Positions 633 through 63,778 of a stretch of DNA of 64,000 nt are shown piece by piece. Each line of letters opens with the position of its first letter. Position 1 is the first letter of the stretch. The notes beneath the pieces are model-generated. The model saw nothing but the letters and a program-made list of their open reading frames with translations, was not told the origin of the DNA and did no database searches. The DNA is from Periplaneta americana (Eukaryota; Arthropoda; Insecta; Blattodea; Blattidae): contig NC_091119.1 of assembly GCF_040183065.1 (NCBI RefSeq), positions 208,882,298 through 208,946,297 on the forward strand. The letters are read 5' to 3'. The translations under genes were made by a program, and so were the position numbers.

Positions 633-1207
633 GCATGTCTCGATTGGCTAGAAAACTGCCTGGAAGCTCCTCGGGCTGCTGATCGCGCGCAGGGAAAGGT
701 CAGTACGAAGGAAGTTCACCAAACAGGGCAGAGGAATCGGCCGCGTTGTCTTCTTACAATGTTTCGTAAAGCTGCCTCCGTTCTTACGAGTATTCTGTGT
801 CCCACATACTGCGAGCGCTGACGACAGCGTGCATACAGATCACTACGCGTTCACACATCCATATTGTTAGATGCGTTGAAACTTCCCAACTGCCAAGCCA
901 CGAGATGTGTACTCGGACACACACGACAGAGATGAGATGACTTTCACCGACCTTGCAGCGTCCTTCCTTTCACTCCCACGAGTTCCGAACTTTCCACACA
1001 TGGACTGAGCTTCAAACGACAGAACGAATGAAGAAAAAGTAACAGAGGAAGACTGCAACGAAACGAAATCAAGAAAAACGACACATAAAGTAGAAGGGCT
1101 CAGATAAAATTAAGGAAACAGTTTCCCACTGCAATCTAAACCATACGGAGTGTGCACAATTAAGTGTCGAGTTTCTTTAAATAGTGATTGTACTGGTACT
1201 GTAAAGA

Positions 1208-1440
1208 TTTATTGGAACAGATACAGTAATTGTTGAGCTATTTTTCAACATATTCTCCACCGGAATTGAGACATTTGGCATACCGTGGAACCAACAGACG
1301 GTTATCACACGCTGGTTCCGATTCCAGGCGGCAGACTTCTACGACACAGTTGATCCCACAGTATGACAATAAATTAATGTCTCAATTCCGGTAGAGAATA
1401 TGTTGAAAAATAGCACAATTGCTGTATTTGTTCCAATAAA
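1208..1440. mobile_element. inverted pair of mariner transposase 3' ends
   Basis: Arms 1208-1275 and 1376-1440 are inverted copies of one another with a few differences. Each encodes the C-terminus of a mariner-type transposase. On the minus strand the left arm reads LVPRYAKCLNSGGEYVEK then stop. On the plus strand the right arm reads CLNSGREYVEK then stop, preceded in the loop by RWFRFQAADFYD, an upstream motif of the same protein. It is therefore a fold-back made from two mariner 3' ends, not a simple hairpin MITE. No complete transposase is present. Confidence 0.7.
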
Positions 1441-1888
1441 TATTTCCATGAAATTGTGTTTTCTTTCTGTAAACGGCAGCAGGGAAACATGCTTTCTGGA
1501 CGGCCCTCGTCTTCATAATATCTTCTGTATTTTGTTTGCTTACTTTTTACCCAATAGGTTGATCATTTAAAAAATAGTACAGCTTACATCTTGATTATTG
1601 CATGAGCCCCCAATGATGCTAGCCCAAGAAAACTTCTACTCTTACAGCAAGAATAATGTCGGTCACATAGGCCCATAAGACAACATTAAGAATATGCTCG
1701 ACATGACGTAATGATATTGATCTCGGACTGCAATGAATAATAAAATTTCAAGTTCCATTACAAGCAGTGAATTAAAAGCAATAAAACGAAGTCGTTGTTC
1801 CATCATGCCATATACTGCAGAAAAATAATCATGTCTTTAGATCTCATAAGGCACATATAGGCCTATACTGCCATTAACTACTAATAAC

Positions 1889-1890
1889 AA

Positions 1891-1948
<58 letters not shown>
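1889..1948. repeat. (ATT)n microsatellite
   Basis: About twenty ATT units in AT-rich sequence. The rest of 1441-2920 shows only AT-rich unique-looking DNA, including GAATGAAT-type short repeats near 2167-2210. Confidence 0.9.
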
Positions 1949-2920
1949 GAACTTTTCCTTTATTTTTTTTTTATAAATCTTAGTTGTAATACTACTAAAT
2001 TAAATACAGGCCTAGTCCTAATGTAAACAAAATTTGTTTTAGTTAGTTCTAATTCTCCAATATTAATGTTACTCCTTTAAATTTTAAGGACGATGACAAA
2101 ACCAATGCATACATTATTGTATAAAAAATGGTAAAATAAGTAAACTTACGCCGAATAAGAGAAAGAATGAATGAAATAAGGGGAAGGTAGAAAATGAATG
2201 AATGAATGAACTAATCCCATTTTCTGTATGTTCGCTTGCAACACGCCATGTGTCAAGGCTGGTTACAACACTTCGCAAAGGTCGACCTGAATAAGCAGGC
2301 AGACGTTGGCCCGCGAGATATAACTAACAAATGGCGGTACGTCTTATCGTGCAACGGTTCAAGAGCAACTAAAGAATTAAAATAAGCTCAACCAACCTAA
2401 GACAAAATTAGTCCCAAGTTTACCTAATCCACATGTTGTCACAATGTATCACCATGTTCCCTCCATTACTTTTGTTTCGTTAAAAGTAACAGAAGCTAAA
2501 AGGCCGAAAGATGCTTTCAAAATGTATAAAAAAGGTAACCATTTTTCATTGGCGGAAATATTATCATCAAATAACTCATTGCGGATGAGTAACAGAACTG
2601 GCAGCGAAATCACTAATGCGCAGCCACTGCACGAGGCTATATTGCACAGCAGACATAAAAAATAATCTTACCAAATCTCGCACATTCAAAACTGTCCAAA
2701 GTATTCTTCTTCTTAATGGCTCTAAATTCCTTCGTGGAACTTCGCCTCTTCTACCGACCTTTTCCAGTCCTCTCTATCTTTAGACCTTTCTACTATAATA
2801 TAGTTAACAATTCTGCATTTCCTTATACAAATCTCGTATTATATCTCTGCCGGTGAATTACCGGTAAATTTCAAACGGCTTATCTTACTCGTGGACGTCA
2901 GACCATTAAAAAACATTACT

Positions 2921-3525
2921 TACTTACAAATGGCTTTTAGAGAACTCGGAGGTTCATTGCCGCTCTCACATAAGCCCGCCATCGGTCCCTATCCTGTGCA
3001 AGATCAATCCAGTCTCTATCATCATATCCCACCTCCCTCAAATCTATTTTAATATTATCCTCCCATTTACGTCTCGGCCTCCCCAAAGGTCTTTTTCCCT
3101 CTGGTCTCCCAATTAACACTCTATATGCATTTCTGGGTTTGCCCATTCGTGCTACATGCCCTGCCCATCTCAAACGTCTGGATTTAATGTTCCTAATTAT
3201 GTCAGATGAAGAATACAATGCGTGCAGTTCTGTGTTGTGTAACTTTCTCCATTCTCCTGTAACTTCATCCCTCTTAGCCCAAAATATTTTCATAAGCACC
3301 TTATTCTCAAACACCTTTAGCCTCTGTCTCTCTCTCAAAGTGAGAGTCCAAGTTTCACAACCATACAGAACAACCGGTAATATAACTGTTTTATAAATTC
3401 CGAATTTCAGATTTTTTGACAGCAGATGACAAAAGCTTCTCAACCGAATAATAACAGGCATTTCCCATATTTATTCTGCGTTTAATTTCCTCCCGAGTGT
3501 CATTTATATTTTTTACTGATTATAC
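2921..3525 (-). mobile_element. RTE-like LINE, 3' part (family A)
   Basis: On the minus strand the frame 3461-2937 encodes [34 protein letters not shown] and [13 protein letters not shown], ending MNLRVL. This is the C-terminal region after the reverse transcriptase of an RTE/BovB-like LINE. The 3' end is followed outward by taagtaa-like sequence. It is a 5'-truncated copy of the family also at 48575-49600 and 59777-60776. The clade call is from motif memory. Confidence 0.8.
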
Positions 3526-9635: not shown

Positions 9636-12600
9636 CTGACAACACAAATACTTACAGATGGCATTACATCGTGACATGACCAACTGCATTAATGAGCCAC
9701 CTGCTCCACTTGGGCTGGTTACCTGGATGGGTTTTTTCCGAGGTTTCCCCCAACCGTAAGGTGAATGTCAGGTAATCTATGGCGAATTCTCGGCCTCATC
9801 TCGCCAAATACCATCGTGCATATTGTTATAAATGAATGCTTCAAAATTACTTTTTCCGCCAAAGTTATATATTTCTTTAATTTTATCTTACGCCCTTTCT
9901 CGAGGGAGGTCTTCAATTAGTTCTGTACAACTAAAAAGAGATGGCCGGGTAGCTCAGTTGGTAGAGCGGCTGCCTACGGACTCGAAAGTTTGGGGTTCGA
10001 TCCTGGGTGGTGACGGATTTTCTCGTTGCCAAACTTCCAGAACGTTCACTTAGCCTCCTATCAGGGTCTTTCCCAGGGGTAAAAGATGGTCGGAGCATTG
10101 TGCCCACCACACCACCTCATTCTAGTGCGGAGGTCATGGAAAGCATGGGGCTCTACATGAGAAACTTCGTTCCAAATCACATGATGAGACGGGAGCAAAC
10201 AAAAAATACTGCAGATCATGTTCAAAACTAGATGGTATTTCATGAGGCTAGCTATTTTAACGACTGTGGCACAGCCAGGATTTTTCTACAACATGGTTTT
10301 CATTTTCTGTAATTTTGTTCTGATTTTGCCTCCTTCCTTTTTTTGTCAGGTCTCTCCTCTATAGCATAGAAGTTTCAAGAGAGTCTGCCATGTCCTACTT
10401 TTTGTAATTTTGTTATATATAATTAGTAAGCCCTTCTTTGTGGATAAAAGGGTGATGAAATGCAGCGGATGGCGAGATGATTACTGCCCAGTGCACCGAG
10501 AATTCAAGGCTTTAAAATAAGAAAATCATGTTAAGAACATAATTAACCCTTATTTATTTTCACATCTTAATGTACCTTTCAGAAGAAATACAAATTAAAT
10601 CCATTTTAGTATAAACTAATTCAATTTGGTTTGCAACAAAGGCAGTTACTAACTACATACCGGTATAGAAAATATTAGAGAATTTTCCACAGCATAGCCA
10701 TTTCTTCTCCTTTCCTTGTAACGTCCGCTGCAGCATGACAGTCAACATACCTGTCACTGTAAAATGGGGGTTCTCAACCTGTGAGCACCCCTACATATAA
10801 TATTAAGTGAGCGAGCACCATGAAATGGAATAGGTTCAATGGACCAATATGAAAACGTAACTGAAATAAATAAATTTTTAAAACACTTACAAGGATAATG
10901 ATATCCTTGAACTTGAATGTTACTAAGCATTTCAGTGATATCGAAGGAGAAATCATTTGTAGCTACACATAACAGTTCCACCAATGTGAATTAGTCTATT
11001 GTGATCATGCTTTTTCTTGAGATATGTCATAAGTGAGAAAGTTTTGTGGCAAAGGTAGATTGTGCCGCACACACACGTAGCCAGAAACACTCCACAGTAT
11101 CTGGAGTCCTTTGTGTCTCCTGCTCACCAAAGGCTATGAATTTATTTTTTCAAAACAAACATTTCTGGGCTAAGGAGGATTGGGGATTTATCATTGAAGT
11201 TCCACACGAGGAGCCACATTATTCTCGTGAATAATCTTAATTTTTCTGATAAGTCCTCCCTGAATTGAAAGGCGTTATACACTATGAAATATGAAGCCTA
11301 TCAGCTCTCTTAAGATATTACAATGGAAGAACACTATTTGTTTCAGCTCATACAACAAAGTCTAGGTTGAGGGTTCGTGCTAGGGAGCACATTTTTACTC
11401 GCATGACAAGAGCACCAGGCTGAGAATGTCTGGAGGCCCAGTAATTGTAATAATGGTGTTAACTAGAAGAGACGATCTCAATGGAGAGACAAGTTGAGTT
11501 GGGAGAAGCCTCACAATATACAGGCAGCATGAAATTCTGCGATAAAAAATATAATAAGAAGATATCAGAACGACATTCTGGCACGGATTATAATAATTAT
11601 TTATAAACGTTTAACAGTTAATGAATAAATTCTGTTAACATTATTTGAAAATTTAAAAATTACATTTCTTACAGTATTTCCAGTAATGAATGTTGTATAT
11701 TAGGAGAAGGATTTTTTTTTTTTTTTGCAAAGCTCTAATATTAGTAGTAATGTCTCATTTTGAACTTCAAAAAATTCAGTCATACCGTATTACGAGGCCT
11801 GTCTAAAATGTATCCGACCTTAAATTTTCCCGCGCAAAGTAGTGATTCTAAGGCGGCGCCGCTGTGCACGGTGGAAGGAGGAACCGTAATGCGCATGCTT
11901 GAATTTTTTCACAGCATTCGCTTGTGCCAGTCACTGGTTGGTGGTCGCCAAGTAATGCTGTTCTAAGTGTTTGTCGGATTTAGTTTTCTCGCAAGATGAC
12001 TGAACGAATTGAGCAAAGATACTGCATCAAAATTTGTCAAAAGCTTGGTGATTCTCAAAGTCAAACAATTCGTAAGATTCAGCAGGTGTTTGGGGAAGAT
12101 GCGATGGGTGTAACACAAATTAAGGAGTGGTTCAACCGATTCAAAGATGGCCGCATATCAGCGGAGAGTGAGCAGCGTTGTGGCAGGCCCCAAACTGCTC
12201 GGAGTGCAGCTGTTGTTGAGAGGGTGCGAAATTTGGTGATGGCAGATCGTCGTTTGACCATGCGGGAGATTGCCGAAGAGGTTGGAGGTTGGAGTGAGAA
12301 AAGATTCTGCACATGCAATTTTGCGTGATGATTTGAACATGAACCGAGTGGCTGCGAAATTCGTGCCCAAGTTGTTGTCCCCGGAACAAAAAGACCTCCG
12401 TCGTGACATTGCACAGGACCTTCTGGACACCGCCAACACTGATCCTGGGTTTCTGAACACCGTGATAACTGGAGATGAGTCATGGGTGTATGGGTACGAC
12501 CCAGAAACAAAAAGACAGTCGTCGCAATGTCACGAATATGCACCGGAAGGACAAACGGTGACAAAGGAGTACTATCACGATGTTCTCTGGCGACTCCGTA

Positions 12601-15260
12601 ATGCAGTTCGGCACAAAAGACCAGACATGTGGACGGCGAACAACTGGCACTTGCATCACGACAACGCCTCCGCACATTCATCCCAATTGATCCACACTTT
12701 CTTGGACAAACATGGAATTACAACCATTCGCCAACCTCCCTACTCTCTAGACCTGGCTCCTTGCGACTTCTGGTTGTTTCCAAAATTGAAGACACCATTG
12801 AAAGGATCCCGTTTTGAGAGTAGAGAAGAGATAATGCGGAACGCAACGACGGAGCTGAACACCATTCCAAAAGAAGACTTCCAGAGGTGTTTCCGGCAGT
12901 GGAAGGATCGGTGGGCTAAGTGTGTGCAAGCACAAAGGGCCTACTTTGAAGGGGATTAGGGTCCCAACCCCGTCAGGTATTTGAAATATTTTTTTCTGGC
13001 TAAAGGTCGGATACTTTTTAGACAGGCCTCATATATTACACAATAACACAGAAAGTGTACATGCCCAAGTCAAAACAAATCAGGATTTCAAATTAATTTT
13101 ATCTGGGAATTAACTACAAGAAACAATCACATACCACTTTAAAACAATATAGAACTTCCTTTCACACTTACTGCGGGTATGAGCTATTGAGTTGTGAATG
13201 TATCATAGAAAATAAAGTGGGGAGCCCACAGACGTAACAAAGTCGGGAAGTCATGACCCACACACCAAACTGATGTTTCCCTCAACCAACAATAACTCGG
13301 CTCCATGTGGAGCGAACAATTTAGATCAGGCTGTAAGTATGCAAGCAATTAAAAGCAATAATTTGGTCAGGTGGATAATTTACCTACACAGTGTATACCG
13401 CCGGGGATGAAAGGAGGAAGGAAGGGCGATTGTCGTCATTGTCATCATCACAATAAGTATTAGGCCTATTACAGTCTCAACGAAGAATTTCCACATCATG
13501 GTTTCCTTGAACAACCTCATTTTGTTAGCTGTTATTCTGCTTTCATCTTTTTTTTCTAACTATCCATCTAGTAAATTAGTTGCATTGTATTTATTTAGTT
13601 TATCCAGACTATTTTGAAATACCACGTTTTTAGTATGGAAAACACATCAGACAAAGAAACGAAGACAACAGTAATTTATACCAATTATTTGTATAATTTC
13701 CTGTTTAACTATTACCTGCATTGCTCTCTCTACTGCATTGACGATTGTCCCTCCCCTTTCTTTATATTAGGGAAAATTCAGTGTCGTGGTTTACCTCCTA
13801 CCTTCAAGTACGCCAACAATGTGTGCGGATCTGTGATCGTTTTTCTTCCTGGCGTACCGTGGATGCAGGTGTACCACAGGGTTCAGTTCTTGGACCTCTA
13901 CATTTTACGATCTACATAAATGACATATCACAATCTATTAAACACTGTAGACATATCCTATTTGCTGACAACTTACAAATATATATCTCTGCACCTACAT
14001 CGGCACTAAATTACGCAATAAATGAAGTAAATAATGACCTAAAATCAATTATTTCATGGACGAAAAAATTTGGACTAAATTGAACTCAGAGAAATCACAG
14101 GCGATTATAATGGGACATCAACGACTTTTAAATAAATTAAACACACGTGACTTATCTCCTGTTAAAATGAATGAAACTATTATCCCTTACAGTGATAGAG
14201 TAAAAAATCTATGAATTTATATGGACAAAGACTTAAGTCAAATCACACACACATGTAGAATAATTTTTATGAAAATTCACACTAAAAAGAATTCGAAATT
14301 TCCTTCCGTTGGTTCTCAAGAACAATTTAGTGCAGTCGCTCTTGATGCCTCATTTTGATTACTGTGACACTCTCTACACTGACCTTAACATGAGACTGAC
14401 AGACAGACTACAGCGTGTTCATAATGCATGTGTTCGATTTATTTGCAACATCCGTAGATCTGACCGTATCACACCTTCACTAAATATGCTGTCCTGAGTC
14501 CGTCTCAAAGAGCAAAGAATTATTCACTCTCTCACGTTACTCTTCAATATTCTTCAAACCTCTAACCCCAGCTACTTAGCTTCTCATTTTCAACATTTGC
14601 CCTCATATCACGAAATAGATACTCGCTCACAACACCATATCACACTCTCCATTCCTAAACACAGAACATCCTTCTACTCTTCATCTTTCACCGTCTCTGC
14701 AGCCCATCTCTGGAACTCTCTACCACAACATGTCAGAGACTGTCGGACATTGTCTAGTTTCAAAAATAAACTAAAATTGCACTTTTTCAATTCAGATTCC
14801 TTTCAGTTATAAGCCCTTTTCTCTGCGATAGTTTCGTAAAATTATACATATTTCTTTTCCTTCCTTTCTCTTTTTTGTTCTCTTGAACACCAGATGAATT
14901 TATTATCACACCCTTTTTATTGTGAATTTCATTTAATTTTCGTATTTTTCTTTTTTATTAATTGTTTTATTACATTCCATTTGTTATATTATTCCTTATG
15001 TTTTCCATATTAACTATTTGTACTGAATGAGTTGCTTTTACTATATTCCAATGTATTTTACTTTCTTTTTTTCTATTACGGTATTATCTTCATGTTGTCT
15101 AGTGTCGATTTTATTATGCTATTATTATTATTATTATTTATTTTTTTTTGTAATGTTAGTATTCTGTTCTTTAACTTTTTGTTAAATTTTCACTGCTTGT
15201 ATACTTTGTGGCCTGGTAGAGTGTAAGAGAAGGCCCTATGGCCTTAACTCTGCCAGTATA

Positions 15261-17060: not shown

Positions 17061-17314
17061 TTGATATAACTATGGTAATTCTACAGAAGACTAACCAAAG
17101 AAGGCATAATTTTTCTAACAGTTGTGTACGACTAGTAGGCCTACAGAATATTAAGCATGTACTCTAGTTTTACTTTCTGGCATCCAATACTTCCCACAGA
17201 ACAATCTAGAACTATTCACCTGCTGTATGTAGTAATGAATGGATGTATTTCCGACATAATGACACCTGCTGATGAGACATGTAATTTAAATACTAGAGTT
17301 TGCTCAAGAGGTCC

Positions 17315-17463
17315 AGGTACAAATTTCTGGATAATGGGTGTTTGGGAGCCTGAACAAGCACCAGAAAAAAAGCATTTTTTGTGCCTGTGGAAGTGCAAAT
17401 TTCTGAACAGTAGGTGTTTGCGGGCCTGGACCGCACCAGCAAGAAAGAATTTTTACACCCAGT
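17315..17463. repeat. two diverged tandem copies of an ~73-bp unit
   Basis: Two adjacent blocks share acaaatttctg, taatgggtgtttgggagcctg versus cagtaggtgtttgcgggcctg, and caccag followed by an A-rich stretch. They are about 70-75% alike. Function unknown. Confidence 0.55.
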
Positions 17464-17764
17464 GAAGATAGAGATTTCGAAGGTCATATTTCGACACAAT
17501 TAACAATATAATGTTTTACATTTAAATGGTGATCAATTCGCTAGGGACGTCTGATGTGAACAATATGGCGGCGATACATCCATTCATTACTACGTACAAT
17601 AAGTGAATAGAAAATAGGCCTAATACGTGCCGGAAAGTAAAACCAAGTGCTTCGTATCCTATACAATTCGTAGTACGAAACTGTATATAAAAAAATGGTG
17701 CCTCCTTTGGTCTAGTTCTTCTGCAGAATTACCATCATCATCATAATCATCATCATCACCATTA

Positions 17765-17932
17765 TTATATCTAGTTATTTATTCGGTTATATAACGACAC
17801 TGTATCAACTTCATTATTTTGCGTCAATTGGAATTGATAACGATGTAAGACTTTTGATTCAACATGTGATTAGCCTACCTGACATTTAACTTTGAAACCT
17901 GGGGGGGGGGGGGATCCCTAAAAAGAAATCCC
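17765..17932 (-). repeat. S4 SINE, body half, interrupted at 17932
   Basis: ggttatataacgacactgta then tcaactt and acctgacattt match the S4 body. The SINE stops at the target duplication gaaatccc (17925-17932) and resumes at 20608, so the 17933-20599 element landed in it. A G-run (17901-17913) replaces the usual ggttgggg. Confidence 0.75.
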
Positions 17933-18284
17933 GGGTCTATATGACTATAGGATATCGGTAGAATGTTTATGAGAATATATGTTTGCTAGATTGGGAAATG
18001 GGGTGATGTCATAAGATTGACGTCATCGGTTAGTAGGGTTACATTTTGTGTTTGCGGGTAAAAATATAGAGGTCGCTGTGCATTCTGGTGGTTAGGTTGG
18101 TATAAGTGTAAATTTTATTGGTGGTTGGTACTGATGAGGTTTGAATGGTGTACCGGTAAAGCATGTGTTTGGATGGTGTGTAAATCATTCTATTATTTGT
18201 TCAATTCGTGAGCAGTTGTGCTACTGGTGATTTGTTTGGCTATGGAGTGCGCTGCTGCCCAAGAGGAGTGAAACGGAGGGCTGA

Positions 18285-20223
18285 ACAAGGTCGACGTACC
18301 ATATGTGAGAAGGTTAGAGGGTTAGTTGAGGTGATATCTCAGTGACATGAGGTCGACGTATGTGAGAAGGTTAGTGGGTTAGTTGAGGTTATATCTCAGT
18401 GACATGAGGTCGACGTATGTGAGAAGGTTAGTGGGTTAGTTGAGGTGATATCTCAGTGACATGAGGTCGACGTATGTGAAAGGTTAGTGGGTTAGTTGAG
18501 GTGATATCTCAGTGACATGAGGTCGACATATGTGAGAAGGTTAGTGGGTTAGTTGAGGTGATATCTCAGTGACATGAGGTCGACGTATGTGAGAAGGTTA
18601 GTGGGTTAGTTGAGGTGATATCTCAGTGACATGAGGTCGACGTATGTGAGAAGGTTAGTGGGTTAGTTGAGGTGATATCTCAGTGACATGAGGTCGACGT
18701 ATGTGAGAAGGTTAGTGGGTTAGTTGAGGTGATATCTCAGTGACATGAGGTCGACGTATGTGAGAAGGTTAGTGGGTTAGTTGAGGTGATATCTCAGTGA
18801 CATGAGGTCGACGTATGTGAGAAGGTTAGTGGGTTAGTTGAGGTGATATCTCAATGACATGAGGTCGACGTATGCGAGAAGGTTAGTGAGTTAGTTGAGG
18901 TGATATCTCAGTGACATGAGGTCGACGTATGTGAGAAGGTTAGTGGGTTAGTTGAGGTGATATCTCAGTGACATGAGGTCGACGTATGTGAGAAGGTTAG
19001 TGGGTTAGTTGAGGTGATATCTCAGTGACATGAGGTCGACGTATGTGAGAAGGTTAGTGGGTTAGTTGAGGTGATATCTCAGTGACATGAGGTCGACGTA
19101 TGTGAGAAGGTTAGTGGGTTAGTTGAGGTGATATCTCAGTGACATGAGGTCGACGTATGTGAGAAGGTTAGTGGGTTAGTTGAGGTGATATCTCAGTGAC
19201 ATGAGGTCGACGTATGTGAGAAGGTTAGTGAGTTAGTTGAGGTGACATGTCAGTGACATGAGGTCGACGTATGTGAGAAGGTTAGTGAGTTAGTTGAGGT
19301 GATATCTCAGTGACATGAGGTCGACGTATGTGAGAAGGTTAGTGGGTTAGTTGAGGTGATATCTCAATGACATGAGGTCGACGTATGCGAGAAGGTTAGT
19401 GAGTTAGTTGAGGTGATATCTCAGTGACATGAGGTCGACGTATGTGAGAAGGTTAGTGGGTTAGTTGAGGTGATATCTCAGTGACATGAGGTCGACGTAT
19501 GTGAGAAAGTTAGAGGGTTAGTTGAGGTGATATCTCAGTGACATGAGGTCGACGTATGTGAGAAGGTTAGTGGGTTAGTTGAGGTGATATCTCAGTGACA
19601 TGAGGTCGACGTATGTGAGAAGGTTAGTGGGTTAGTTGAGGTGATATCTCAGTGACATTAGGTCGACGTATGTGAGAAGGTTAGTGGGTTAGTTGAGGTG
19701 ATATCTCAGTGACATGAGGTCGACGTATGTGAGAAGGTTAGTGGGTTAGTTGAGGTGATATCTCAGTGACATGAGGTCGACGTATGTGAGGTTAGTGGGT
19801 TAGTTGAGGTGATATCTCAGTGACATGAGGTCGACGTATGTGAGAAGGTTAGTGGGTTAGCTGAGGTGATATCTCAGTGACATGAGGTCGACGTATGTGA
19901 GGTTAGTGGGTTAGTTGAGGTGATATCTCAGTGACATGAGGTCGACGTATGTGAGAAGGTTAGTGGGTTAGCTGAGGTGATATCTCAGTGACATTAGGTC
20001 GACGTATGTGAGGTTAGTGGGTTAGTTGAGGTGATATCTCAGTGACATGAGGTCGACGTATGTGAGAAGGTTAGTGGGTTAGCTGAGGTGATATCTCAGT
20101 GACATGAGGTCGACGTATGTGAGGTTAGTGGGTTAGTTGAGGTGATATCTCAGTGACATGAGGTCGACGTATGTGAGAAGGTTAGTGGGTTAGTTGAGGT
20201 GATATCTCGGTGACATGAGGTCG
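18285..20223. repeat. 57-bp tandem repeat array (~34 copies)
   Basis: The unit runs from gtcgacgtatgtgagaaggt through tagtgggttagttgaggtga to tatctcagtgacatgag. Most copies are identical or differ at one or two bases. Variants are 56-bp (one), 54-bp lacking aag, and copies with gctgagg or tcaatgac. No spacers separate units. Each unit has a gtcgac palindrome and two GGTTAG hexamers. No long open frame crosses it. Confidence 0.97.
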
Positions 20224-20312
20224 AATACTGTGAATTCAATTATATAAGTGCGTTTTCTCTGCCGTGTATAGTGTCGAATTGCCGAAATTTCACGTATGGG
20301 GTCGTGTTGATG

Positions 20313-20430
20313 GTATCCTATTTTGAATAAGAACGGATGGGTTGTATTCCAGAATGGGATGTTGTGAAATTGTTTTGCTGATATCCTATTTTGGATAAGA
20401 GCGGATGGGCTCTGTTCCAGAATGGTATAT
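20313..20430. repeat. two direct ~50-bp repeats in the right arm
   Basis: tatcctattttgaataagaa at 20314 recurs as tatcctattttggataagag at 20382, each followed by cggatggg, tccagaatgg. The core tatcct matches the inner part of the right terminal repeat. Confidence 0.7.
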
Positions 20431-20607
20431 CGTCAATTTGTGCGATTATTGTTTAGATAGTTTTATTTACTCGTCGTGTTGGTTTACGTCGGCCATGTTG
20501 TGACGTCACTGCGTTGTGACGTAACTACAGCCATGTTGTGACGTCATCGTTTGTCAAACTTGACAAAAATTAAGCGATATCCTTTAATAAAAGAATCCCG
20601 AAATCCC

Positions 20608-20712
20608 AACCAAGTAACAAGCACAAACGGGAATCGAACCCACGCCCGAGTGCAGCTTCAGATCAGCATGCACACGCTACAGCCTGAGCCACGCTGATGT
20701 CGCTGGTGCTGG
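20608..20712 (-). repeat. S4 SINE, tRNA-head half
   Basis: aaccaagtaacaagcacaaa, cgggaatcgaacccacgccc and tgagccacgctgatg are the antisense of the S4 head with its B-box. It continues the SINE broken at 17932. Confidence 0.75.
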
Positions 20713-63133: not shown

Positions 63134-63569
63134 GCCTAACCTGTTTTCAGTGGCACATCGCACTTAGCCATGTAGTAATTATCATTGTTTTTAAATCCGG
63201 CAATAACTGGATAGTTAGTTTCTCCTCCTCTGGACAGTGGCGGCTCGTGATAAAATATTACGCGTGTTCACAATTTTGTGTCCCAAAACCGAAGAGACTT
63301 TGAAATCATACGTTCAATATGAAATGTCATGATTCCAATGTTTCACCATCGAAAAAATCGTGTATAAATTCAAATATATAATAATAATAATAATACCCAA
63401 TCTTTTTATTTCCAATTTTTCCTAGTAAGTCAGTTTACCCAGTTCAAAATTGCTTGAACAGGCTCATTATTTATGTTTGTTAAAAATTAATACACACCAC
63501 AATGCCGTTATTAAAAGCGTGTGTTCTGTAATATATTTTGGCTCACAACACACTGATACACTATACTTA

Positions 63570-63778
63570 GTTTTTAGTTGGTTATTTAACAACGCTGTAT
63601 CAACTACTAGGTTATTTAGCGTCGATGAGATTGGTGATAGCGAGATGAGGCCGAGGATTCGCCATAGATACCTGGCATTCACCTTGGAAGAAATCCAACC
63701 AGATAATCAGCTCAAGCGGGGATCGAACCCGCGCCCGAGCGCAACTTCAGACCGACTGAACCACGCTGGTGGCTGCTT
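63570..63778 (-). repeat. tRNA-derived SINE, family S4, full length
   Basis: tagttggttatttaacaacg, gatgaggccgaggattcgcc and the head antisense (gcggggatcgaacccgcgcc, gactgaaccacgctgg). Second complete S4 copy, only about 560 bases from the first and in the same orientation. 63781-64000 holds nothing further. Confidence 0.85.

Follow-up and report, generated by a model that had tools for sequence, protein, structure and literature searches.

The insertion at positions 17933–20599 of the window, the whole 64,000-nucleotide stretch of Periplaneta americana DNA analysed here, is a single 2667-bp unit consisting of a left arm, a satellite array and a right arm. We regard this insertion, referred to below as the window copy, as a young, non-autonomous member of the Merlin superfamily in which the 57-bp repeat is an inherited internal part of the family (probability about 0.92). 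Since the unit is already present in transposase-bearing relatives that share the left end, it was most likely inherited as part of the transposon, within which it then expanded; acquisition by a non-autonomous copy is the less likely route. The window copy and its immediate surroundings comprise the following features:

17766–17924, minus strand: left-side part of an interrupted tRNA-derived SINE (limits approximate)
17925–17932, no strand: left copy of the target duplication, GAAATCCC, an exact repeat
17933–17957, plus strand: left terminal inverted repeat, GGGTCTATATGACTATAGGATATCG, from genome matches and the inverted-repeat alignment
17933–18284, plus strand: left arm, in which no coding frame was found
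18004–18025, plus strand: subterminal boxes TGATGTCA (18004) and TGACGTCA (18018), 72 bp and 86 bp inside the left end
18302–20224, plus strand: 57-bp satellite array, 34 units, unit GTATGTGAGAAGGTTAGTGGGTTAGTTGAGGTGATATCTCAGTGACATGAGGTCGAC, from the tandem-repeat period
20224–20599, plus strand: right arm, in which no coding frame was found
20304–20441, plus strand: second small repeat within the right arm, ~68 bp, two copies in the window copy
20501–20546, plus strand: subterminal boxes TGACGTCA (20501), TGACGTAA (20517) and TGACGTCA (20539)
20575–20599, minus strand: right terminal inverted repeat, from the inverted-repeat alignment
20600–20607, no strand: right copy of the target duplication, GAAATCCC, an exact repeat of 8 bp
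20608–20662, minus strand: right-side, tRNA-like part of the same SINE (limits approximate)

The inverted ends (17932–17957 and 20575–20600) span 26 nt, start with GGG and are imperfect, with 73% complementarity; the right-end sequence of the family is CGATATCCTATAATAAAAGAATCCC. The array has a period of 57, 34.0 copies and 96% matches, and accounts for ~72% of the window copy. In the right arm, the distances of the three boxes to the right terminus are 99, 83 and 61 bp, and block R 73–236 is further repeated in other copies. The arms showed no Merlin similarity at E ≤ 0.01, no long frame and no coding remnants. A sequence-only reading of this DNA had described the inverted ends, the exact 8-bp repeat and the 57-bp array, all of which were confirmed, as well as a SINE split by the insertion. 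The latter also holds: with the element removed and a single duplication retained, the sequence rejoined from the two flanks aligns over the junction to a SINE copy in the window (63688–63751, 83%) and to another in locus L050. The left-flank piece of the SINE in addition aligns to window positions 63562–63643 at 75%.

Immediately to the left of the SINE lies a fold-back repeat (17072–17735), in which 17212–17261 pairs with 17561–17610 (84%) and 17072–17182 with 17628–17735 (74%), with simple TAT/ATC repeats outside. Farther away, a mariner-like transposase remnant was recognised by eye at about 12001–12960.

Copies of the element are present throughout the genome (3.23 Gb searched, 91 contigs). 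Allowing two mismatches at most, the 25-nt left end has 241 matches (114 + 127), compared with none for the reversed pattern. Both arms, searched separately as the sequence-only reading had proposed, occur at other loci. Among the best 40 of 403 left-arm candidates that were scored, all 40, the window copy included, match at 93–100%; for the right arm, the best 40 of 443 candidates were scored. Apart from the window copy, 39 scored copies remain from the left-arm search; we read the loci around the best 20, and 19 of them hold an array and right-arm sequence. The remaining locus, L019, has an array of ~36 units and no right arm in the piece examined. An insert interrupts the array of L021, and the right terminus was not recognised in L011, L013, L019 and L026 among these 20. 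In 20 copies, the mean divergence of the left arm from the consensus is 1.9%, a low value that indicates a young family, and copies of the element are dispersed over many contigs. As in MITEs, they are non-autonomous, numerous and short, with an internal tandem array; at 2667 bp the window copy exceeds the usual MITE size.

Duplications were scored in the 23 copies with both ends recognised. Ten of these have exact 8-bp duplications, all ten different in sequence, and in three the flanks match at 7 of 8 bases. Read as 9 bp, the duplication is exact in two of the 23 and matches at 8 of 9 in one, a reading made without a cross-pair control. For the 8-bp reading, left and right flanks taken from different copies served as the control, and none of 506 such pairs reached 7 of 8. 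No good duplication was found in seven of the 23 copies (L016, L023, both in L051, L053, L056 and L057). L014, L021 and L025 fall outside this scoring because one end is below threshold; a separate end check gave an exact 8-bp duplication for L025 and 7 of 8 for L014. The different duplications at other loci, mostly 8 and sometimes 9 bp, agree with what the sequence-only reading had predicted. Given the 241 left ends against none in the control, and duplications far above the cross-pair control, a chance origin is excluded.

We also sampled the genome starting from the repeat itself. A search with three units, of which the best 40 of 102 candidates were scored, yielded at least 33 clusters; all matches were listed on the minus strand, a bias that we ascribe to the listing. 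Nine of the 33 listed clusters were already known from the arm searches, and 10 of the remaining 24 were read. In all ten arrays the right terminal sequence of the element adjoins the array; the left terminal sequence is present in eight. As for individual arrays, L052 is cut on its 5′ side, as judged by eye, and the array of L058 extends beyond the piece examined. These loci represent a short-arm form with a left arm of ~80–91 bp, the array, and just the final 70–141 positions of the right arm; the shortest copy measures 295 bp and has 2 units. In at least seven of the 14 other unit clusters, no more than 1.2 kb separates an exact left end from the last match listed. Long arrays of 19 to ~87 units occur among the matches listed at C2:61.6, C10:28.4, C2:7.3 and C17:4.95 Mb, the longest (C10:28409391–28414368) possibly having ~87 units as judged from the span of listed matches.

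An array is present in all 21 copies picked by their left arm, the window copy included, with lengths from 1.8 units in the interrupted L021 to 35.8. The variation in unit number foreseen by the sequence-only reading is thus seen between loci, from 2 to about 36. The array edges are in register: arrays start at the same unit position in 18 of the 21 copies and end at the same position in 14. Unit types were compared among 407 complete units from 29 arrays, leaving out L021 and L051. Of these units, 87 are of private types, found more than once in a single array and in none of the other arrays; 500 shuffles gave 2.4 such units on average and 14 at most. One such private type makes up 25 of the 33 units in L020, and L026 shows a repeating multi-unit pattern. 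Private types so far above the shuffled expectation show that growth of the arrays is local.

The sequence-only reading could not name the family. As judged from sequence, it can now be named as Merlin, since a Merlin transposase is encoded at two loci that share its left end and left arm. PMC8101967 describes Merlin elements as having 5′-GG ends, terminal repeats of 24–462 bp that are sometimes very imperfect, duplications of 8 or 9 bp and a DDE_Tnp_IS1595 transposase. The window family has imperfect GGG ends of 25–26 nt, and its duplications include ten exact 8-bp and two exact 9-bp cases among 23 copies. The window copy has no transposase, and the DDE_Tnp_IS1595 domain (PF12762) is found in the two relatives that share its left end, L067 and the locus at C5:132069380–132071800.

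A PF12762 profile search of the genome gave 425 candidates, the best 150 of which were scored, all above the cut-off. In the first 12 Merlin loci read, picked for differing frame lengths, neither the ends of the window family (best 16 of 25) nor those of an older dispersed family described below (best 16) were found. Among four additional loci, one, L067, has the left end of the window family, matching at 24 of 25 positions, and its left arm is 82% identical to that of copy L010 over 313 aligned bases. It holds frames of 98 and 170 amino acids split by one TGA, with PF12762 in the second (66 bits). Its order is left end, left arm, transposase frame, one shortened unit (2046–2092) and right-arm sequence. 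The autonomous relative with the same ends that the sequence-only reading had suggested looking for was found in part: L067 and the C5 locus share the left end, but right-arm similarity in L067 runs to position 2215 and ends there, short of the right terminal repeat.

The C5 locus is known from its left end, left arm, transposase and units, and was read as far as the interior of its array. Its arm is 89% identical to that of L010 over 237 bases, and the PF12762 domain (63.2 bits) lies in a 263-residue frame without stops. The distance from left end to domain is 844 bp in L067 and 847 bp at C5. At least 11.3 units of 55 bp fill the 621 bases examined, and full-length unit pairs are 90–95% identical to the window unit. 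More arms of the C5 type were identified with its left arm as query (best 40 of 392 candidates scored). One, at C7:82579931, is followed 1.1 kb downstream by a PF12762 match in the same orientation; those at C13:46310041 and C11:34641705 have the exact 25-nt left end. Elsewhere, five consecutive PF12762 matches on one strand, each with a 469-residue open frame, lie at C3:53933514–53934812, and this row looks as if part of the Merlin transposase itself had been repeated.

Related units occur in other families as well. In a second Merlin family, a similar unit (75% by consensus) is arrayed beside the transposase in all four loci seen, with 5 units in L042, 10 in L041, 43 in L031 and its neighbouring piece, and ~41, estimated by length, in L061 and L063. 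Its 5′ end, placed by homology boundary, differs from that of the window family and its unit lies in transposase orientation; a 3′ inverted end was looked for in this family and not found. A third Merlin family (L029 and L033) has about two more distant units (57–69%) in the opposite orientation. In these two loci and their 3′ pieces (L064 and L065), long degenerate CCTAACC-type arrays adjoin the related units. The older dispersed family carries 2–3 units at 79–81% (best 40 of 1377 candidates scored). Among seven of its copies and L028, the 5′ end, GGTCTAGTATACATTCCGATACC, is clear in two, and a 3′ end is seen in two. Copy L048, with a partly changed 5′ end, has TAATAAAT on both sides, as judged by eye, and in four copies TGACGTCA-like boxes lie ~60–90 bp inside the readable end. 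In L050, ~40 units of the older 57-bp type (1044–3304) lie next to a SINE; no transposon ends were recognised around this array, which is possibly a freed satellite.

Other Merlin loci hold arrays of different kinds. A G+C-rich 60-bp array, unrelated in sequence to the 57-bp unit, lies 3′ of the transposase in L032 (1884–2333, 7.5 copies) and L035 (2143–2351, 3.5 copies), and L034 carries a 38-bp array. Related units were found in four of the 16 sampled Merlin loci (L029, L031, L033 and L067). This count is not strong by itself, as related units also occur at three places in the flanks of the 20 left-arm copies. The association of the unit with Merlin rests on its repeated placement within families (L031, L041, L042 and L061; L029 and L033) and on the left end shared by L067 and C5.

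The sequence-only reading held that a non-autonomous transposon had spread the satellite as its cargo. The spread is borne out by the 241 left ends and by arms and arrays at many loci, and the satellite appears to move with the transposon. The term cargo fits poorly, however, as the unit is present even in relatives that have a transposase and share the left end. If a non-autonomous element had captured a pre-existing satellite after losing its transposase, this would agree with the distant unit relatives (75–84% by consensus) at many other places, with the 40-unit array of L050, and with unit relatives at Merlin loci lacking window-element ends in the parts examined. Such a capture is nevertheless very improbable given the 11 or more units of 90–95% identity at C5, the shortened unit beside right-arm sequence in L067, both behind the same left end, and an array edge phase that is constant in most of the 21 copies. 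How the unit came to be in several Merlin families is a separate matter, and here ancient capture or recombination between families, instead of common descent, has a substantial though lesser claim. The differing 5′ end and the transposase orientation of the unit in the L031 family, against the opposite orientation in L029 and L033, speak for transfer. Common descent, on the other hand, fits the older dispersed family, which shares end style, TGACGTCA-like boxes and unit. Transfer between families would be compatible with inheritance of the unit within the window copy's own family.

Two further explanations are scarcely credible. A satellite array might have gained flanking arms by chance or segmental duplication without transposing, and the seven two-ended copies lacking a good duplication could be cited for this, but ten different exact 8-bp duplications against 0 of 506 controls, the empty site restored by joining the split SINE, and the spread of copies over many contigs all contradict it. 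Equally remote is assignment to hAT or P, which also make 8-bp duplications and which duplication length by itself would suit; relatives with the same left end encode PF12762 and the ends begin with GGG. The target duplication of hAT elements follows the pattern nTnnnnAn. T at position 2 is seen in three and A at position 7 in one of the ten exact duplications, and hAT was rejected on this and the GGG ends.

An IS1595/Merlin-type transposase, encoded by relatives that share the left end, most likely acts in trans to excise and reinsert the window-family copies. Reinsertion would create the 8-bp, sometimes 9-bp, duplications. The array lengthens and shortens within individual copies, with slippage or unequal exchange as the probable mechanism, and each copy comes to hold its own unit number and variants. 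In the window copy, which has no transposase region, the inherited repeat has become the body of the element, and the outcome is a satellite sown over the chromosomes. The unit may even be a working part of Merlin, such as a block of binding sites for the transposase or a host factor, rather than a passenger. This is rather unlikely, though it would suit a unit kept in three transposase-bearing Merlin families and the older dispersed one. If true, the expansion-prone unit would make Merlin a standing nursery of satellites able to outlive the transposon ends.

Several known systems resemble the window family. The terMITEs of termites, reportedly described by Luchetti in 2015 as MITEs with tandem repeats, would likewise be repeat-bearing MITEs from the insect order of the host. 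Tetris is said to be a foldback element whose repeats are part of its terminal inverted repeats, whereas the array of the window family is internal. Helitrons and Helentrons lack terminal inverted repeats and target duplications; the window family has both, and this class was rejected. Tetris of Drosophila virilis is a DNA transposon supplying satellite building blocks (PMC4079207), and dispersed short satellite-like arrays in Crassostrea gigas, similar to ours in being carried by a non-autonomous mobile element, are explained by a Helentron (PMC7492417). The Xenopus MITE miDNA4, which contains a satellite, and Xstir (PMC12628747) are like the window family in being miniature transposons with a variable internal satellite array, with free-standing arrays as the next step. 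miDNA4 belongs to Tc1/mariner and capture of a pre-existing repeat was proposed for it; unlike miDNA4, the window family has transposase-bearing relatives that hold the unit.

The closest likeness is to the Merlin families of PMC8101967, which correspond in ends, duplications, the transposase of relatives and internal tandem repeats; several contain such repeats and were proposed to spread them as proto-satellites. Compared with these, the window copy has no transposase and is ~72% array, arrays reach ~36 units and possibly ~87 at C10:28.41 Mb, and related units are found in several Merlin families of one genome. Internal tandem repeats of Merlin as proto-satellites (PMC8101967) and satellites borne by MITEs (PMC12628747) are already in print. 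No paper on the window-family element was found among titles and beginnings of abstracts in the open PubMed Central literature. What is new is this family of elements, together with a series of copies in one genome that leads from transposase-bearing to satellite-bodied forms.

The spread of a satellite to many chromosomes is usually argued from its end products, whereas this single genome displays the successive steps. They run from transposase-bearing Merlins with one or many units, through older non-autonomous copies with 2–3, to young copies with 2 to ~36 units, the nearly all-array short-arm form and an array around which no transposon ends were recognised. The window family thus offers a concrete system for timing array growth, during transposition or afterwards.
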